Origin: Candidatus Syntrophosphaera sp.
Lineage (GTDB): Bacteria; Cloacimonadota; Cloacimonadia; Cloacimonadales; Cloacimonadaceae
Length of the DNA stretch: 34,448 bases
Reading direction: 5' to 3'
Assembly (NCBI GenBank): GCA_019429425.1
Contig: JAHYIU010000012.1
Location: forward strand, 1-34,448
Numbering within the stretch: the stretch's first letter is position 1; every line of letters begins with the position of its first letter. This document shows positions 1,520 to 16,536 of this stretch, piece after piece. Below the pieces are notes generated by a model. The model had not been told where the DNA came from. It saw only the letters and a program-made list of their open reading frames with translations, and ran no database searches. The position numbers were made by a program, and so were the translations under genes.

Positions 1520-2455
1520 TTATTTCTCAGGCCTTGAACCCTCCAGCAGTTCCCTCACCAGGAGCGGGACCATGATCTCGTGGTGGCCGATAAAGTAATA
1601 GCCCTGCCCGCCGTTCTGCACAGGGCGGCGGACCACGTTCTCCATAGCCCGGTAATGCGTGTTCATGTCAAAGACGGCGGTCGTGAAATCCTGCACCCGG
1701 CCATAGATGTTTCTGGCAACGGTCAAAGCCTTTAAAAAGACCTCGGGGAGGATGACTGCGGAACCCAAATTGATCCAGACACCGCCGCCGTTCAGATTTC
1801 TCACCTGTTCGCAGAGGATACGGAAATCGCGCAGGCTGCAATCTCCGATGGCGCTGCCATCCGCGCAGGGTGTCTGATGTGTGATGTCTGTTCCCAGTGC
1901 GATATGCGCCGTAACGGGGATTTCGTGCTTGTAGGCCATCGCCAGGAGCGAGATCTCGGGGTTAGGGGCCTCATTCAGGATGTGCCGGCCCAGGGCTTCG
2001 CCATAGCCGAGTTCGGCGTCGCTGGCTTTGGTGATCACGTCGTTGATCCCGTGCGTGGTCTCAAAGACCATGCCGAAGCTGCCATCCGCCAGGCCTTTGC
2101 CCACGTCCTCCGAAGTTTTGCCAAAGAAGGCCAGCTCATAATCATGGATGGTCACGGAGCCGTTTACGGCGAAGCATTGGACCGCTCCGGCCTGCATGAG
2201 TTCGATGAGCAGGGGCGTCAGGCCGCATTTGATGACATGCCCGCCCAGGGCGATGATGATTGGTTTTTTATGCTCGATTGCGTGACGGCAGGAACTGACA
2301 AAGGCTTTGAAATCCGCGCCCTTGAGGATGTCCGGTATGCTGTCCAGCAAGACCGCTCCCGGTTTGGCGAAGGAGGCGGGTTCCACCTTGCTGGGCCTGT
2401 CTTTCACGGAACTGACCGTGATCTGGAAGATGTCGATCTCTTTGTATCTGCTCAT
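1520..2455 (-). CDS. Conserved protein resembling the deoxyhypusine synthase fold, function unknown
   Basis: 311 residues with no signal peptide, so probably cytosolic. The central part reads IIIALGGHVIKCGLTPLLIELM, then NGSVTIHDYELAFFGKTSEDV and FETTHGINDVI, followed by HIALGTDITHQ and GGGVWINLGSAVILPEVFLKA. This looks like a nucleotide-binding Rossmann-type domain. I recall this pattern from conserved bacterial hypothetical proteins sometimes labelled deoxyhypusine-synthase-like, but substrate and reaction are not established and I do not claim a spermidine/eIF5A role. It is the last gene of a minus-strand operon and its ATG overlaps the stop of queH in an ATGA arrangement (2452-2455), indicating translational coupling. 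The coding assignment is firm; the fold assignment is tentative. Confidence 0.75.
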   Translation of the reverse strand: MSRYKEIDIFQITVSSVKDRPSKVEPASFAKPGAVLLDSIPDILKGADFKAFVSSCRHAIEHKKPIIIALGGHVIKCGLTPLLIELMQAGAVQCFAVNGSVTIHDYELAFFGKTSEDVGKGLADGSFGMVFETTHGINDVITKASDAELGYGEALGRHILNEAPNPEISLLAMAYKHEIPVTAHIALGTDITHQTPCADGSAIGDCSLRDFRILCEQVRNLNGGGVWINLGSAVILPEVFLKALTVARNIYGRVQDFTTAVFDMNTHYRAMENVVRRPVQNGGQGYYFIGHHEIMVPLLVRELLEGSRPEK

Positions 2456-3000
2456 TTCTTTATTCCCAGATAGCGTTCTTCCTCGCTGAAAATGCAGCCG
2501 CAGTATTTCTGGCGGTACATGTTTGCCTCTTTGGAAAGCCTGATCCCCTCGCTCCAGAGGGGACGCCAGTCGCGGTAGAAAAAAGTTATATTATGATCTT
2601 TGGCGGCGGCCTCTGCGATCTGGATTATCAGTTCATGCTTTTGGTACTTGCTGTAGAGCAGGGTGGAAGTGAAGGCGTCGAAGCCCTGTTCCTCTGCGGT
2701 TTTGGCGGCCATTTCGAGGCGGGAGCGATAGCAGAGTTCGCAGCGATCCTCTGGATTGGCCGAAACCTTGCCCACAAAGCCGCGCAGGTCATATTCATCA
2801 TTAACGATCAGGGGAATTGATTCTGCCGCGCAATACTCCTCAAGGGAGCTGAGCCGGCTGCGGAACTCTGTGTAGGGCTGGATGAAAGGATTGTACCACA
2901 GCACACTGATCTTGATCCCCTCCGCCTGGAGCTGGCGCTGGGGCGCGATCAGGCAGGGCGCGCAGCAGGTGTGGATCAGAAGGTTCTCAGGAACGGACAT
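2452..3000 (-). CDS. queH: Epoxyqueuosine reductase QueH
   Basis: QueH (former DUF208) reduces epoxyqueuosine to queuosine in the wobble position of tRNAs with GUN anticodons, replacing the unrelated QueG. This 182-residue protein has the full cysteine set of the family: HTCCAPC near the N-terminus (Cys12, 13, 16), RCELCY (Cys87, 90) and YCGC near the C-terminus (Cys167, 169), which in QueH bind the Fe-S cluster and a nearby metal. Length is within the usual range. It overlaps the PAS gene upstream by 14 nt and the next gene by 4 nt, so it is co-translated in the operon. No other queuosine gene is in the window. Confidence 0.93.
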   Translation of the reverse strand: MSVPENLLIHTCCAPCLIAPQRQLQAEGIKISVLWYNPFIQPYTEFRSRLSSLEEYCAAESIPLIVNDEYDLRGFVGKVSANPEDRCELCYRSRLEMAAKTAEEQGFDAFTSTLLYSKYQKHELIIQIAEAAAKDHNITFFYRDWRPLWSEGIRLSKEANMYRQKYCGCIFSEEERYLGIKK

Positions 3001-4564: not shown

Positions 4565-5803
4565 TTAGTTTAGGATCAGCAATTTGCCTGATTGGATATG
4601 CTGGTCCTGCTCAACCCGATACAAATACACTCCGGCAGGGAGTTTTGGCAGGGGGACGGTCCCGTCCGGGCTCACGCTTTCTTTCTGCAGCAATTGGCCC
4701 CGCGGGTTGTAGATCCTGAGTTCAGCGTTGCCAGAACGCCCTGAAACCAGACGCAAAGAGCCTCCACGGGGCAAGGGGTTGGGATATAGCCGGAACACGA
4801 CTTTTTGGACCTGGTCGTTGTTCGCAGTGTTTCCCTCGGGTGTGACGACCATGTCCGTGCTGGAGAGTCCGACGTTGTAGCTGTTCAGGGGTATGAGATC
4901 GTGCTGATAGGTGGTTACGACGGAATTTCCAGTCCAGTTCTGGTCCAGGAGTGCCATCATACCCGCGTTTCCGGAGATGGCAAAAGCGTCGTAGGGGAGA
5001 GGGTTGGAGGCATTGTGATAGACCTCGTGGGTGACCGCGTCATAGCTGTAAAGGCCGAAGCCCATGCCATCGCCCAGATAGGCGAGGCCGGAAGGATTGA
5101 TCCAGATGTTGCCTGGATTTCCGCCGATGTTGAGCCTCTGTACCAATTCCAACGTGGCGGGATCGATGATGTCGACCTTGCCCTGGATGTCGGTCCAGTT
5201 GCCGGTGCAAGATACATGCAAGTAACCGTCGTGGACCACCGCAAATTGGGGATTTGTCCAAACTGGCAGGGTTTCCGTAAGGGTAAAGGAATCCAGGTCG
5301 ATCACGCTGATGGAGCTATTGGCATAGTTGTTGATGTAGCCGCCGGTGTTGCAGACAAAGAGGCGGTTTTGCCAATTTGCCAAACCCTGGGGCGAGATCC
5401 CCACCGTGAGGGAAGCCACCACGGAATTGCTTTGCAGGCTGATTTTGTAGACTTTGTCCGTGAACAGCCCCGTTACATAGAGGTTTTCACCCACCCTGAG
5501 CACGTCATAGGGATTGCTGGAAGGCGCAACGGGGATATAGCGAATATGTGCCCCAGTGGCGCGGTTAACCACCTGGATGGCGTTGTCGCCCGAGCAGGCT
5601 ATGTAAACATGGTCCTCATCCAGGTCCATGAGGTTGGGGGTTAAACCCAGTTGGGTAAAGGAATTATTGACCGTTCCGGCCTGGGTGTCGATCCGCGAAA
5701 GGGTGCGGGAAGCGGAATTGACCACGAAGATCTCCGCCGCGGAGAGAGGTGCCTGCAGCAGCAATATGATCGCCGCAAGCAGCCCTGATTTGTTTTTTGG
5801 CAT
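4565..5803 (-). CDS. Secreted YncE/BtuG-like beta-propeller with C-terminal sorting tail, under B12 riboswitch control
   Basis: 412 residues. A signal peptide (MPKNKSGLLAAIILLLQAPL then SAAE) without a lipobox cysteine is followed by about 300 residues of repeated YVTN/YncE-type propeller blades: EIFVVNSASRTLSRID, VYIACSGDNAIQVVNRATG, LYVTGLFTDKVYKISLQS, LFVCNTGGY, ISVIDLDSFTLTETL, LHVSCTGNW, VDIIDPATLELVQRLNIGGNP, giving roughly seven blades. The last ~75 residues are a Por-secretion-like tail (FRLYPNPLP ... GVYLYRV ... GKLLILN), so export and surface attachment are likely. I take the ATG at 5803 because AAAAGG lies 8 nt before it; an in-frame GTG at 5812 overlaps that site. A cobalamin riboswitch immediately upstream links it to vitamin B12. 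In Bacteroides the YncE-like lipoprotein BtuG binds B12 on the cell surface; a similar role here is inference. Confidence 0.85.
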   Translation of the reverse strand: MPKNKSGLLAAIILLLQAPLSAAEIFVVNSASRTLSRIDTQAGTVNNSFTQLGLTPNLMDLDEDHVYIACSGDNAIQVVNRATGAHIRYIPVAPSSNPYDVLRVGENLYVTGLFTDKVYKISLQSNSVVASLTVGISPQGLANWQNRLFVCNTGGYINNYANSSISVIDLDSFTLTETLPVWTNPQFAVVHDGYLHVSCTGNWTDIQGKVDIIDPATLELVQRLNIGGNPGNIWINPSGLAYLGDGMGFGLYSYDAVTHEVYHNASNPLPYDAFAISGNAGMMALLDQNWTGNSVVTTYQHDLIPLNSYNVGLSSTDMVVTPEGNTANNDQVQKVVFRLYPNPLPRGGSLRLVSGRSGNAELRIYNPRGQLLQKESVSPDGTVPLPKLPAGVYLYRVEQDQHIQSGKLLILN

Positions 5804-5806
5804 GGC

Positions 5807-5844
5807 GTTCACCTTTTTCTTTTTTGATCAGAAAGGGGGTGAAC
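5807..5844 (-). promoter_or_regulatory. Ribosome-binding-site sequestering hairpin (riboswitch expression platform)
   Basis: On the minus strand GTTCACC (5844-5838) pairs perfectly with GGTGAAC (5813-5807). The second arm covers the GG of the AAAAAGG ribosome binding site just before the ATG at 5803. Next to the arms, CC(C)TTT and AAAGG can extend or shift the pairing. This is the expected form of a translational OFF platform between a B12 aptamer and its gene. Confidence 0.6.
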
Positions 5845-5887
5845 TACTTTTCCGGAGGCCACATGAACCGTATGGCCGCACCGAAGG

Positions 5888-6037
5888 CGGTGGCAGGTTT
5901 CCTGGCTCGCAGCGGCGTTTATCATGACCCGGCCTTCCCGCTTAAGGCAGTGACCGGATCTGCCCAAATGCTGCTTACAGTGGCGGTTACCGCTCCCGTT
6001 TCGCACGGGATTCCCTTTTACCTATGAAGTAGCACCA
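5888..6037 (-). promoter_or_regulatory. Cobalamin (AdoCbl-class) riboswitch aptamer
   Basis: Read on the minus strand, the conserved elements occur in the right order and spacing. They are GGTG (6036-6033), GGTAAAAGGGAA (6022-6011), the GTGCGAAACGGGAGCGGT block, CCGCCACTGTAA (about 5987-5976), a second CACTG, CGGGAAGGCC (about 5940-5931), ATGA, and the B12 box AGCCAGGAAACCTGCC (5907-5892) followed by CACC, which closes P1 with the 5' GGTG. It lies in the 320-nt gap between typA and the YncE-like gene, in the same direction as the latter, and ends about 85 nt before that start codon. Confidence 0.95.
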
Positions 6038-6123
6038 TCTATTCTTGCGGGCCAAGATCGCTCGCTGGCGTTTTGTGTCAAGGCAGAAAACACACACAGC
6101 CCAACAACAATGCCCAACCTGCC

Positions 6124-10119: not shown

Positions 10120-10198
10120 GCGTTTATAGAGGAATATTCCCTGAAATCAAGGAATATGGACGGTTCAGGGGTTTTCCCGCATGTCAGGAGATAACACA

Positions 10199-12010
10199 AT
10201 GAGAAAGAAACCAGCTTTGGCTTTGCTCCGAATTACAGTTTTTATCGCCTTGTTAATTTTACCTTTGTCAGTTTCGGCGCAGGCGCTGCTGACCTTTGAG
10301 GTCGACGACCTGGAAGCCTACAACCGCAGCGGAAACTGGATCTACGATGCCGACGGGCCCGGCTTTCCAACCCACGACGGGAATTGGTTCACTTTCAGCC
10401 CTGATCCCAGTTATCTTTTCCACTACTTCGCGGAAAGGTACATCCACGACAACGGCACCACCACATCCTTGGTCTGCATCGAGGAAAACGTGCCTCTGGC
10501 CACCGATCCCAGCCAGATGGACATGATCTTCACCGAGTTTGACATGGTGGCTTTCAGAAGGTTAAACAACATCGATCCACTGGCCCCTTGGGATATGCCG
10601 GGCCAGTCAGCAGACGAGCGCGTCTATGCCAATGCCACCGGCTACATCACTTTTAACGGTGTTCCGGTGCTGACCATCGTCAGCGCCACCTTCGTGATCA
10701 CCACCCCCTATCCCAGCGAGGATCAGGTCCGGGCACTCAGCCCCTATCTGGCTTCCTGGACCGGAGACATTGGCTCCGGCGCGCCCCAGACTGGATATGG
10801 CTTTGGCGACCTCGATCTAGCCAACTGTGATCCTGATTGGGCAGCCTTGTTTGCCGGCTCAGATTACAAAGTCCAGATGAACATGGTCGGAATCACCTCA
10901 ACCGTGAGCCCGCTCTACGGCTGGTTCGATTTCGACTTGGAAGTCCTTCCCTCCCCGGTTCCCTTTGAGGCCAACAACATCTATCTTGACCTGACCAGCC
11001 TTCCCCAGAGCATCGATTTTCCGCTAATGTCGGCTGGAGTTGATGTTACCGCGGGCGAACCCGCCGGCCAGTACAACAACATGCAGCACATCTACCTCAA
11101 CGAGATCGGGATCGCGCCGTTGGGCACCCTACCGGACGGAGTGGTTGACCTAGCCCCAAAATACTGGGAATTGGGCAGCACCCTGACATCCTTCAACGCA
11201 GATATCCGCTTTACCCTCACCAACAGCGAACTTCCCGGGCCGCCTGAGAACCGGCGGATCCTCCACCGGCAAATATGCCGTGAAGGCGATGATCCATTGC
11301 CTTGGACGCTTTGGACCAACTACACCTTGCTGAGCCCCACCACCATCGTGGCCAACAACGTATCTCAGATCGGGGAATTCACCGTGGCTTCGATACAGGA
11401 CCAAAACGTGCCTGTCGTACTGAGCAGCTTCAACGCGGTGGCGACCGCCCAAAATAAGGTTCAGATCAACTGGAGCAGCCAGACGGAAAGCCAGATGGTG
11501 GGATACCGCCTCTATCGCGGCTTCAGCGCGGAACAGGCAGCCGCGGGTTTGCTGGACCATCCCTTGATCCCGGCAACCAACTCCAGCACTCTGCAGACCT
11601 ATTCGGTGACCGATGAAAACGTTCAGATCGGTTCGACCTACTTCTACTGGCTGGAAGCCGTTGACTATACCAGCAGTGAATTCTTCGGCCCTGTCAGCGT
11701 TTCGGTCACAGGCAACGTCCCGCCCGTGCTTCCGGGAGAAACTTCCCTGCAGAACGCCTATCCCAATCCTTTCAAAACCGGGAACAGCACCAACATCGAA
11801 GTTGCCATCAAAGCAGGGGAAAATGGTATCATATCCATTTACAACATGCAGGGCCAGTTGGTCAAGACCTATAAGGTAAGCGAAGGGATCCACTCCATCG
11901 CTTGGAATGGAACAGACGGCAAAGGTAAAGCCTGCGGCAGCGGGATCTATTTCTATAAGCTCAGAACGCCCTCTTTCAGCCAGACCCGCAAGATGGTCAT
12001 CATCAAGTAA
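10199..12010 (+). CDS. Large secreted protein with Fn3-like domain and C-terminal sorting tail
   Basis: 603 residues. The ATG at 10199 has AGGAG 8 nt upstream; an earlier in-frame ATG at 10181 would overlap that site and is less likely. A signal peptide (MRKKPALALLRITVFIALLI ... VSAQA) comes first. A region of about 370 residues with no recognised domain follows. A fibronectin-type-III-like module comes next (VVLSSFNAVATAQNKVQINW ... GYRLYRG ... YFYWLEAVD). The end is a Por-secretion-like tail (LQNAYPNPF ... ISIYNMQGQLVKTY ... GIYFYKL ... KMVIIK). This layout is typical of cell-surface proteins of FCB bacteria. Function unknown. It is a single-gene unit with its own candidate promoter and a strong terminator. 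Confidence 0.85.
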   Translation: MRKKPALALLRITVFIALLILPLSVSAQALLTFEVDDLEAYNRSGNWIYDADGPGFPTHDGNWFTFSPDPSYLFHYFAERYIHDNGTTTSLVCIEENVPLATDPSQMDMIFTEFDMVAFRRLNNIDPLAPWDMPGQSADERVYANATGYITFNGVPVLTIVSATFVITTPYPSEDQVRALSPYLASWTGDIGSGAPQTGYGFGDLDLANCDPDWAALFAGSDYKVQMNMVGITSTVSPLYGWFDFDLEVLPSPVPFEANNIYLDLTSLPQSIDFPLMSAGVDVTAGEPAGQYNNMQHIYLNEIGIAPLGTLPDGVVDLAPKYWELGSTLTSFNADIRFTLTNSELPGPPENRRILHRQICREGDDPLPWTLWTNYTLLSPTTIVANNVSQIGEFTVASIQDQNVPVVLSSFNAVATAQNKVQINWSSQTESQMVGYRLYRGFSAEQAAAGLLDHPLIPATNSSTLQTYSVTDENVQIGSTYFYWLEAVDYTSSEFFGPVSVSVTGNVPPVLPGETSLQNAYPNPFKTGNSTNIEVAIKAGENGIISIYNMQGQLVKTYKVSEGIHSIAWNGTDGKGKACGSGIYFYKLRTPSFSQTRKMVIIK

Positions 12011-13213: not shown

Positions 13214-16200
13214 TTATTTCATCAACACCATCTTGCGGGTGGAGGAGAATTTTCCGGATTTCATGCGATAGAAATAGACGCCACTGCTGACAGGGGAGCC
13301 ATTGTCGTCGGTTCCGTTCCATTCCGCCTGGTGTCTGCCGGCGGGAAGGTTCGTGTTCAGCAATGTCCTTACCAACTGCCCCTTCTGATTGAAGACCTCG
13401 ATGCTGACCGCGTCATTGGAGGCAAGCTCAAATCTGATCTGGGTGCTTGGGTTGAAAGGATTGGGGAAATTTCCGCTGAGGCCGGTGGCAACCACAGGGA
13501 TGTAGTTATCTTCAACGGGAGTATATTGATAGACGTTCCCAGCCCGGTTGTAGGTACCCATGTAGCAGGGCCACTGGATGCTTTGGGCGGGACGTTTGAT
13601 ATCAATAACAAAGAACCCCGCATCGTTGGGGATCGCGATATCGAGATCACCGTCCAAGTCCACATCTGCCAACGAAGCGGAAACCTTGATGTTTCCCGTG
13701 ATGTTGATCGGGAAGTTGCTGGATTCGGTGCCGTCCAGACGGACGCTGTGCAGGAAACCGTTGGTATCGCCGAAGATGATGCCGGCATAGTCATCGTTGT
13801 CAAAGCGGGCTACAGTGGGGGTGCATTCAACAGCCTGGCCGACGTTGATGGGTGTTCCGGGCAGGTCAGTTCCGTTCGAGTTTAGGATATTGATTACACC
13901 AGCCGCCCCTATCACGATGATCTCCTGTGTGCCGTCGTTGTTGACATCCGCGACTACAGCTCCGGTCTTGATCTGGCCGCCGACGTTCTTTTCAAAGAAC
14001 AGGCTGCCGTCATGGTTGAAAGCCTGGATATAGCCGGCAGTGCTGGTGTTGACAATGATCTCGGGATGGGTGTCCGCGTCCAGGTTGGCAATGGTGATGG
14101 GGTTTTGGCTTCCGCCCCGCATGGCGACCGGAAATCCCGGAAGGTTCTGACCCGTGGCGCTGTTGATGGCGCTCAGGTTGCCGTTCAGGGTGGCGACCAG
14201 GATCTCGTGGACACCGTCTCCGTTCAGATCAGCGATGGCAGGTGGTCCAAGCACGGCCCCGCCAACGCTGACGGGAAAGTTCGGATAATCAGAGCCATCG
14301 GCATTGAGCACAATAAGGTTGCCGGTCTGGGTGGCAGTGATGATCTGGCGCTGTGCGTCCATTTCCAGGGAGGCGATGACTGGGCCTGCGCGCAGCGTTC
14401 CCCCAGCCGGAACCGTCCAGAGCACGTTTCCGTTCTGGTTGAAAAGCATTATGCTGTTATTGGAAAGTGAGGCGGCAAATTCCTTCAAACCATCCGCGTT
14501 GACATCGCTCATGGCAAAGGAGCCAACTACCGCGGCCCCGGCCTGGATGGGGAATCCGGGAAGCATGGTCACTCCGTCTGATTTCATGGCGCGGATGTTG
14601 CCGGATTGGTCGCCAAAGATGATCTCCTTGTCGGGCTGGGTGTCCAGATTGTAAAGAACGGGGCTTGAAGTTGAGGCACCGCCGACGTTGTATGGCCAGC
14701 CGTGCTGGATTAGCGAGAGTTCTGCGCTGAAGGGCAAAACCTTGGTGTAGGGGAAGGGAGCATCGGCATTGGCCGATACTGATAGTTCAAAAGGAATGGG
14801 CTCTGAAGGCAGAGAGGCCACGGTGCTGATTTTGAAGGGCTGGCTGTTGTTCCACATGGTGCTGCCAGGGGTCAGGTTGCCATAGCTGGCGGTAGCATCG
14901 ATGATGGTTACTCCGGGATAGTTGCAACTCAGCGTGGCGACCAGGTTTTCGGCTGTCAGCCAGGCCAGTCCGTTATCGGAGAGATAGTTGTTCAGCGAAA
15001 CCTTGAGCCTGACGACTTCGCCGGGATTGGCGACTCCGTCTCCGTCGCCTGAGAATTCCTCTAGCATGGTGTCGTCTATGGTGATGTTGGGTATCTTGTC
15101 ATACATGGTGGCGGCAAAGGCGTTGACCCTGCCGGCTCCCAGAAGACCGTCACCCTGGTTGTTTATGTAGGTGGGATTCACGTCGTAGATATAATCTGCT
15201 GTTAGCATCAGCCTTTGCCTCAACTGGGCGGGGGTCATGGTCGGATGCAAAGCTTTGACCAGGGCTGCCACACCGGCCACGACAGGCGAGGCCATCGAAG
15301 TGCCGTCATAGGCATCGTAGCCGTTGTTGGCAATGATTGTGGAGAGAATGCCTTCGCCCGGCGCGCAGATGTCTATGGGCAAACCGTAGTCTGAAAATCC
15401 TGACTTGACGTCGTTCTGGCCAGTGGAAGCCACACATAGGGCATTGGTGCAGTCGGCGGGATAATCCTGATAGGAAGAGGTGTGCTCCATGTTCTCGTTT
15501 CCCGCGGCGGCTATGACCAATGCACCGAGAGCGGTGGCGTAGTTCACGATGGAATTGGGATAGGTCCCGCTTCCAGTGCTGCCCCAGCTACAATTGATGA
15601 TATGGGCGCCAACCTCGGCGGCGTATTTGACCTGGTCATAGGCGTAGGAAATACCGGTGGAATTGCTGGTATTGGAAGAGCCTTTGCAGGAGATGATGGA
15701 AACGATGGGTGAGGTGCCGACTACGCCGATGGCGTTGTTGCCCACTGCCGCGGCGCATCCAGCTACGTGTGTGCCATGGTCGTTGGCTGTCCAGGTTTGG
15801 ATGGGATTGTTATCATTGTTGTAAAAGTCCCAGCCCACGAGGTCGTCGATCTTGTTTCCGCCTTCGCCAGCGTCAACACCGTCGCCGCCGGATATGGTGC
15901 CGGCATCCCAGTTGATGGTCATGCCTGGCGCTTCGGCTGGATTGATCCAGATGTTGGCACGCAGATCGGGGTGGTTCCATTTGACGCCTGAATCGGTGAT
16001 GGCCAGCTTCACATCGAATGAGCCCTGGATGTAGTCCCAGGCTTCATAGCTGCGGATCCGGGCGTGCACATATTGGGAGGTGACCATCGGATCATTGGGT
16101 ACGAATTTGCTGCGCACAATACCTTCCAACTCCGCGTAGAGCAGGTTTTCGTTCTGGGCCAGTTCCTCGACAGCGTCGTCGATCCTGTCGTCAGAGTCCA

Positions 16201-16507
16201 GGATCAGGCGATAGGTGTTTTGCAGGTAGAGGCCGTTATCGTTCCAGGTGGGGACTTTCACATAGGGATGCATTTGCTGCAGTTCCACAATGTTGTATTT
16301 GGCTGCGAGCCTGTCGAAGGATGTCAGGCCGGTCTTCAGCTGGCCGTTCTCCAGGGTGGTGTCTATTCTTCCCGTGTCGTTGGCTACCGCTGCCTTGGTG
16401 AAGCAGACGATGATCGACTTGGAGACGAAATAGTCGGGATCAAATTTCAACGCGAACATGGCGCTGATCGCAATGATGAGCGAGATGATTAAGATCAGCT
16501 TTTTCAT
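13214..16507 (-). CDS. Secreted subtilisin-like (S8) serine protease with FG-GAP-like repeats and sorting tail
   Basis: 1097 residues. A signal peptide (MKKLILIISLIIAISAMFAL) and a propeptide of about 120 residues precede an S8 domain with catalytic Asp172 (AITDSGVKW), His244 (NDHGTHVAG) and Ser404 (DGTSMASP); the oxyanion Asn is in AAAGNEN. After a beta-rich linker come about six FG-GAP/VCBS-like repeats with DxNxDG-type calcium-binding loops (DVNADGLKEF, DLNGDGVHEI, DVNNDGTQEI, DVDLDGDLDI), probably a propeller. The end is a tail (FPNPFNPST ... GVYFYRM ... KMVLMK). The ATG at 16507 has GAGG 6 nt upstream; a TTG 12 nt earlier is not needed. Likely role: surface or extracellular protein degradation feeding amino-acid fermentation (inference). 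Confidence 0.93.
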   Translation of the reverse strand: MKKLILIISLIIAISAMFALKFDPDYFVSKSIIVCFTKAAVANDTGRIDTTLENGQLKTGLTSFDRLAAKYNIVELQQMHPYVKVPTWNDNGLYLQNTYRLILDSDDRIDDAVEELAQNENLLYAELEGIVRSKFVPNDPMVTSQYVHARIRSYEAWDYIQGSFDVKLAITDSGVKWNHPDLRANIWINPAEAPGMTINWDAGTISGGDGVDAGEGGNKIDDLVGWDFYNNDNNPIQTWTANDHGTHVAGCAAAVGNNAIGVVGTSPIVSIISCKGSSNTSNSTGISYAYDQVKYAAEVGAHIINCSWGSTGSGTYPNSIVNYATALGALVIAAAGNENMEHTSSYQDYPADCTNALCVASTGQNDVKSGFSDYGLPIDICAPGEGILSTIIANNGYDAYDGTSMASPVVAGVAALVKALHPTMTPAQLRQRLMLTADYIYDVNPTYINNQGDGLLGAGRVNAFAATMYDKIPNITIDDTMLEEFSGDGDGVANPGEVVRLKVSLNNYLSDNGLAWLTAENLVATLSCNYPGVTIIDATASYGNLTPGSTMWNNSQPFKISTVASLPSEPIPFELSVSANADAPFPYTKVLPFSAELSLIQHGWPYNVGGASTSSPVLYNLDTQPDKEIIFGDQSGNIRAMKSDGVTMLPGFPIQAGAAVVGSFAMSDVNADGLKEFAASLSNNSIMLFNQNGNVLWTVPAGGTLRAGPVIASLEMDAQRQIITATQTGNLIVLNADGSDYPNFPVSVGGAVLGPPAIADLNGDGVHEILVATLNGNLSAINSATGQNLPGFPVAMRGGSQNPITIANLDADTHPEIIVNTSTAGYIQAFNHDGSLFFEKNVGGQIKTGAVVADVNNDGTQEIIVIGAAGVINILNSNGTDLPGTPINVGQAVECTPTVARFDNDDYAGIIFGDTNGFLHSVRLDGTESSNFPINITGNIKVSASLADVDLDGDLDIAIPNDAGFFVIDIKRPAQSIQWPCYMGTYNRAGNVYQYTPVEDNYIPVVATGLSGNFPNPFNPSTQIRFELASNDAVSIEVFNQKGQLVRTLLNTNLPAGRHQAEWNGTDDNGSPVSSGVYFYRMKSGKFSSTRKMVLMK

Positions 16508-16536
16508 TGGGCACCTCAATTGGATTTGTTTATTCC

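Follow-up and report, generated by a model that had tools for sequence, protein, structure and literature searches.

Why would a cobalamin riboswitch stand in front of a gene for a secreted propeller protein in the Cloacimonadota, uncultured bacteria that are common in anaerobic digesters and anoxic waters? In Bacteroides, BtuG binds cobalamin and cobinamide at femtomolar strength and forms a complex with BtuB, and an earlier reading of the present locus, made from its sequence alone, had put the propeller forward as a BtuG-like candidate under riboswitch control. Here we follow up this proposal in the window, a stretch of 34,448 nucleotides that makes up contig C12 of a Cloacimonadota MAG (the source genome; 2.38 Mb, 99.7% complete), and find it supported by linkage across the phylum and by a fold match to BtuG. 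We predict with good confidence that in Cloacimonadota the propeller captures corrinoids at the surface as the partner of outer-membrane BtuB, a job that falls to BtuG in Bacteroides.

The riboswitch and the propeller gene

The features referred to throughout, in window coordinates, are as follows.

5875-6054 (-): cobalamin riboswitch aptamer (RF00174), full length, found with cmscan; the sole one in the genome
5892-5907 (-): B12 box AGCCAGGAAACCTGCC, read directly and aligned to the RF00174 consensus
5807-5844 (-): expression platform hairpin, a predicted translational switch, whose fold is found in relatives as well as in the window
4565-5803 (-): secreted seven-bladed YncE/YVTN propeller with a T9SS tail, predicted to be BtuG-like, 412 aa from the ATG at 5803
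5738-5803 (-): Sec signal peptide MPKNKSGLLAAIILLLQAPLSA without a lipobox cysteine, from the sequence, with a helix at residues 7-19 in the model; orthologues are alike
4838-5737 (-): seven-bladed beta-propeller domain, residues 26-325 of the protein (P0001), with a model pLDDT of 91.5 and a Foldseek match to BtuG
4574-4789 (-): type IX secretion C-terminal sorting domain, residues 342-413, from PF18962 and TIGR04183
3338-4483 (-): acyl-CoA dehydrogenase gene directly downstream of the propeller gene, after a gap of about 80 bp, outside the conserved B12 unit

The sequence-only reading had described the aptamer as textbook and proposed a search against RF00174. The match spans the full model (positions 1-189) and scores 75.9 bits, where the gathering threshold is 31.5 (E 3.6e-17), and the B12 box lies exactly where that reading had placed it, at 5907-5892. 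Between the aptamer and the start codon, GTTCACC (5844-5838) pairs with the Shine-Dalgarno sequence GGTGAAC (5813-5807); in relatives GTTCAYC is likewise paired to a Shine-Dalgarno GGTGAAC in the same interval. Standard pairs occupy 81.3% of the cells of this hairpin in 19 distinct aligned rows, as opposed to 37-48% in slid registers. The motif is so strongly conserved that covariation is weak: double changes are seen at 2 pairs, a level reached by 25 of 500 shuffles. The hairpin points to translational control, in which the gene would be off at high B12.

In the list of open reading frames, the gene downstream of the riboswitch extends over 4565-5812 on the reverse strand and begins with GTG. 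The ATG at 5803 is likely to be the true start, since the GTG (5812) overlaps the Shine-Dalgarno sequence AAGGTGAAC and at least 90% of the orthologues keep the Met at 5803. The signal peptide and the YncE-like propeller of about seven blades that had been read from the sequence are borne out: Pfam YNCE scores 35.5 bits (cut-off 27.1), and an AlphaFold model built on a 39-sequence alignment has seven four-stranded blades and a C-terminal sandwich. The lipobox is lacking, as had been noted, and the same pattern is found in orthologues. What had looked like a Por-secretion tail scores above cut-off with both Por_Secre_tail (PF18962; 27.6 bits, cut-off 27) and TIGR04183, the type A tail (46.3 bits, cut-off 23); PF18962 is present in 37 of 39 propeller orthologues, phylum-wide. 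In the model the mature N terminus leads straight into the first strand; with an N-terminal linker missing, anchoring, if any, must be C-terminal. The source genome encodes SprA (424.5 bits, cut-off 200), PorU (582 bits, cut-off 420) and dozens of sorting-tail proteins, so the tail of the propeller has a machine serving it, and the TIGR04183 score together with SprA and PorU classes the protein as type IX cargo of type A. Two more type IX tail proteins lie in the window, at 10181-12010(+) and 13214-16519(-); one of them is a subtilase with FG-GAP/propeller-like repeats.

Linkage to B12 uptake genes across the phylum

We surveyed 125 Cloacimonadota genomes, mostly MAGs with broken contigs. Of these, 101 carry cobalamin riboswitches (115 riboswitches altogether); strong orthologues of the propeller and of BtuB occur in 103 and 110 genomes, respectively. 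As many as 94 of the 103 propeller genes sit right behind a cobalamin riboswitch or btuB. The linkage of riboswitch and propeller that the sequence-only reading had suggested looking for in relatives is conserved: in 38 genomes, 36 of them from the family of the source organism, the propeller gene starts 59-181 bp behind a riboswitch, and in 31 more it directly follows btuB inside a riboswitch-led operon. Another 25 propeller genes are immediately preceded by btuB, and no riboswitch was seen at these loci, which are often on short contigs. Neither link is found for the remaining 9, of which 6 belong to the genus of G001. For 60 of the 103, btuB is found on the same strand no more than 0.9 kb upstream, and the order btuB then propeller, directly adjacent, prevails in most families other than the source organism's own. 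Seen from the riboswitches, the first gene is btuF (52), the propeller gene (38) or btuB (15) in 105 of the 115 cases, and three further riboswitches head btuD-btuB-propeller. Strong riboswitches heading other genes are those on G050:C51, G050:C40, G068:C296 and G068:C34.

In deep lineages the locus reads riboswitch-btuF-btuC-[isc genes, opposite strand]-btuD-btuB-propeller; Pfam assigns the operon members to Peripla_BP_2, FecCD, ABC_tran (ABC ATPase) and the TonB-dependent receptors. The inserted cassette, iscU, iscS and an Rrf2 regulator, is present between btuC and btuD in deep families (L069, L071-L084) and splits the B12 locus at the same place in many families. Closer to the source organism, some genomes of one genus in its family carry btuB and the propeller gene consecutively, each with a separate riboswitch; in its own genus the riboswitch is retained at the propeller gene only and not at btuB. 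The statement that no btuB adjoins the propeller thus holds for this genome, where btuB lies elsewhere (G000:C9:11762-13846, right after an ABC ATPase gene, btuD) and btuF is on contig C95; in more distant families the two genes are adjacent. Genus g2 (L056, L057; one complete genome) has the propeller without an adjacent riboswitch or btuB, and a search for weak RF00174 matches near the g2 propeller or the own-genome btuB returned none down to E 1. At L057:2481-2700 there are three Acido-Lenti-1-like matches with 87 bp spacing, just below the curated threshold. A single-sequence scan of genome contigs with the propeller recovered three loci, all from Cloacimonadota. Plasmid tblastn matches (Priestia, Streptomyces and others) were set aside as generic YVTN propellers that cover about the first half of the query.

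Resemblance to BtuG and the proposed role

A structural comparison with BtuG had also been suggested. When the propeller model was used in a Foldseek-type fold search against 350,542 PDB chains, BtuG structures took ranks 2-17, mostly at 2.5-3.9 A over about 330 columns, with a TM on the BtuG (target) side of 0.75-0.80 for single propeller domains. The archaeal S-layer propeller 1l0q ranked first by E-value, yet its whole-length superposition gave 12.4 A; over the full length, BtuG is the best global fold match to the model among solved PDB propellers. The propeller profile matches BtuG with an E-value of 1.5e-22. Single-sequence and profile searches place 1l0q first and BtuG after it, and identity between the propeller and BtuG is 13-19%, so that BtuG would not stand out on sequence alone.

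In BtuG2 the beta5A loop grips B12 in simulations and Tyr239 is a reported B12 contact (PMC10404256). In a low-identity alignment, for which the BtuG2 residue numbering was set by locating Trp194 in the alignment printed in PMC10404256, the propeller loop N155-S167 falls opposite this loop (Asp236-Pro249) and Y159, a Tyr in 27 of 39 orthologues, opposite Tyr239; Trp194 is not kept, its place being taken by an invariant Gly115. Conserved loop residues concentrate on one face of the propeller, that of the B-C and D-A loops (0.57 versus 0.43, p 0.001), which carries 11 positions that are at least 90% conserved as compared to 1 on the other face. The loop aligned to beta5A belongs to this conserved face. 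C202 of P0001 (window 5207-5209) is a Cys in 39 of 39 orthologues and lies at a strand end on the conserved loop face; it might contribute to the binding site.

The receptor to which the propeller would be matched is a TonB-dependent barrel most like BtuB. Its profile finds Bacteroides BtuB2, BtuB3 and BtuB1 as best PDB matches and E. coli BtuB next, and its model (pLDDT 85.6) has BtuB3, BtuB2 and BtuB1 as top fold matches; the protein falls short of the full-length NCBIfam BtuB cut-off. A demand for B12 had been suggested on account of methylmalonyl-CoA mutase, and the source genome indeed encodes two subunits of this enzyme with the B12-binding domain, as well as an adenosyltransferase. CbiC and CobS were not found in the 99.7%-complete genome, so that de novo B12 synthesis and late-stage assembly look absent; on gene content, the organism is predicted to be a B12 scavenger. 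A gene for QueH, an epoxyqueuosine reductase, is located two genes downstream of the acyl-CoA dehydrogenase (window 2452-3000(-)). QueH is a replacement for the B12-dependent QueG, and one could speculate that its presence near the propeller fits B12 sparing.

YVTN propellers are common, and the match of unrelated plasmid proteins to the first half of the protein could be taken to mean that it is a generic surface propeller with no B12 role. However, this gene is the sole full-length match in its genome, and the association of 94 of 103 orthologues with riboswitch or btuB speaks against this reading. The same can be said of their co-occurrence with btuB: both genes are present in 101 genomes, the propeller alone in 2, btuB alone in 9 and neither in 13 (Fisher p 3e-10, not corrected for phylogeny). 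We consider the generic explanation very improbable, and give no more credit to the view that it is the downstream acyl-CoA dehydrogenase and propionate genes for which the riboswitch exists, the propeller being an unrelated inserted surface protein. The gap of about 80 bp between the two genes and the presence of the mutase in the genome would suit this view, and the dehydrogenase gene is possibly co-transcribed with the propeller gene. Nevertheless, the dehydrogenase adjoins the propeller essentially only in the source organism's own family; outside it, the link of the propeller to riboswitch or btuB persists. Moreover, it is the Shine-Dalgarno site of the propeller gene itself that the predicted switch hairpin covers. 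A riboswitch for the dehydrogenase was rejected on synteny.

Two other explanations accept a connection with BtuB. The propeller might be a structural or gating lid of the receptor that does not itself bind B12, as its BtuG-like fold, the adjacency to btuB across the phylum and the loss of some BtuG contacts, Trp194 for example, would allow. We hold this to be unlikely: conservation is clustered on the loops of the face with which BtuG binds B12, the equivalent of the beta5A loop is kept, and the source genome maintains a riboswitch for the propeller and none for btuB, which suggests that the role of the propeller is itself tied to B12 supply. Only slightly less doubtful is the possibility that the protein is released through the type IX system as a diffusible B12 scavenger, to be re-captured later by BtuB. 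It has no lipid anchor, its gene stands apart from btuB in the own family, and other bacteria release some of their type IX cargo. On the other hand, type A tail cargo, the class identified by TIGR04183, is usually surface-anchored in Bacteroidota, and the position of the gene right after btuB in most other families would be expected of a stoichiometric lid.

Capture of corrinoids at the surface on behalf of BtuB, the explanation that we favor, can be pictured as follows. To judge from the anatomy of the leader, high cellular cobalamin would be bound by the riboswitch, the hairpin over the Shine-Dalgarno sequence would be favored and translation would be turned off; at low cobalamin the propeller would be made. 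Sec would take the protein across the inner membrane and the type IX system across the outer one; given its tail, SprA and PorU, it would probably be held at the surface once the C-terminal domain is processed. Cobalamin or other corrinoids would then be bound on the conserved face of the propeller and handed to BtuB, with BtuF and BtuCD carrying them onward to the cytoplasm. Points that weigh against this picture are the low identity to BtuG, the glycine in place of Trp194, the unfocused negative charge, the g2 propellers that stand apart from both riboswitch and btuB, and an anchor at the other end of the protein than in BtuG.

Comparison with known systems

The sequence-only reading knew of no such propeller in this lineage, and we likewise found no earlier description of BtuG with T9SS, or of Cloacimonadota with cobalamin or B12, in the open-access literature. 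Since a riboswitch-controlled BtuG-like propeller travels with B12 importer genes throughout the phylum, surface B12 capture is probably not confined to Bacteroidota. If this is true, high-affinity surface capture of B12 is broader than the lipoprotein BtuG of Bacteroidetes and other ways of anchoring are possible, Cloacimonadota would be predicted to be B12 scavengers that depend on their neighbors, and the propeller offers a defined protein for a direct binding test. A fuller proposal, that propeller capture paired with BtuB is no Bacteroidota speciality, that in Cloacimonadota it uses a type IX, C-terminal anchor and a different lid hinge, and that C202 may bind corrinoid, strikes us as evenly balanced.

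Among systems described elsewhere, the Methanosarcina surface-layer YVTN propeller (1l0q) and E. coli YncE (3vgz) belong to the same repeat superfamily and have no B12 link. BtuH and DUF4465 proteins are likewise surface corrinoid binders encoded in B12 loci, with another fold; a domain search found no BtuH/DUF4465 domain in the propeller protein.

The closest parallel is with BtuG1-3 of Bacteroides (PDB 8bmx, 8bmy, 8okv, 8blw, 8p97, 3dsm), which share with the Cloacimonadota protein the seven-bladed YncE-type propeller, surface export, control by a cobalamin riboswitch and, in most of the phylum, adjacency to btuB. BtuG adjoins btuB, whereas the own-family propeller does not; in the source genome the riboswitch link stays. 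BtuG2 has a reported dipole; in contrast, the negative charge of the propeller (net -16; family mean -20) is not focused on the conserved-face loops by a crude loop-level measure. A 2018 eLife study reported BtuG homologues from Bacteroidetes only and, in nearly all of them, a lipobox and export signal (PMC6143338). Unlike them, the Cloacimonadota propeller has no lipobox or lipoprotein export signal and ends instead in a C-terminal type IX sorting domain. Because this lipoprotein feature is missing and B12 binding is a prediction, we refer to the protein as predicted BtuG-like and do not file it as BtuG; as a putative B12 binder, it probably works like BtuG. Its putative partner receptor has as closest solved relatives BtuB1-3 of the Bacteroides BtuB-BtuG complexes (PMC10404256). 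In BtuB2G2 the N-terminal lipid linker of BtuG2 serves as the hinge (PMC10404256); this linker is absent from the Cloacimonadota propeller, whose C-terminal anchoring would give the pair a different geometry.
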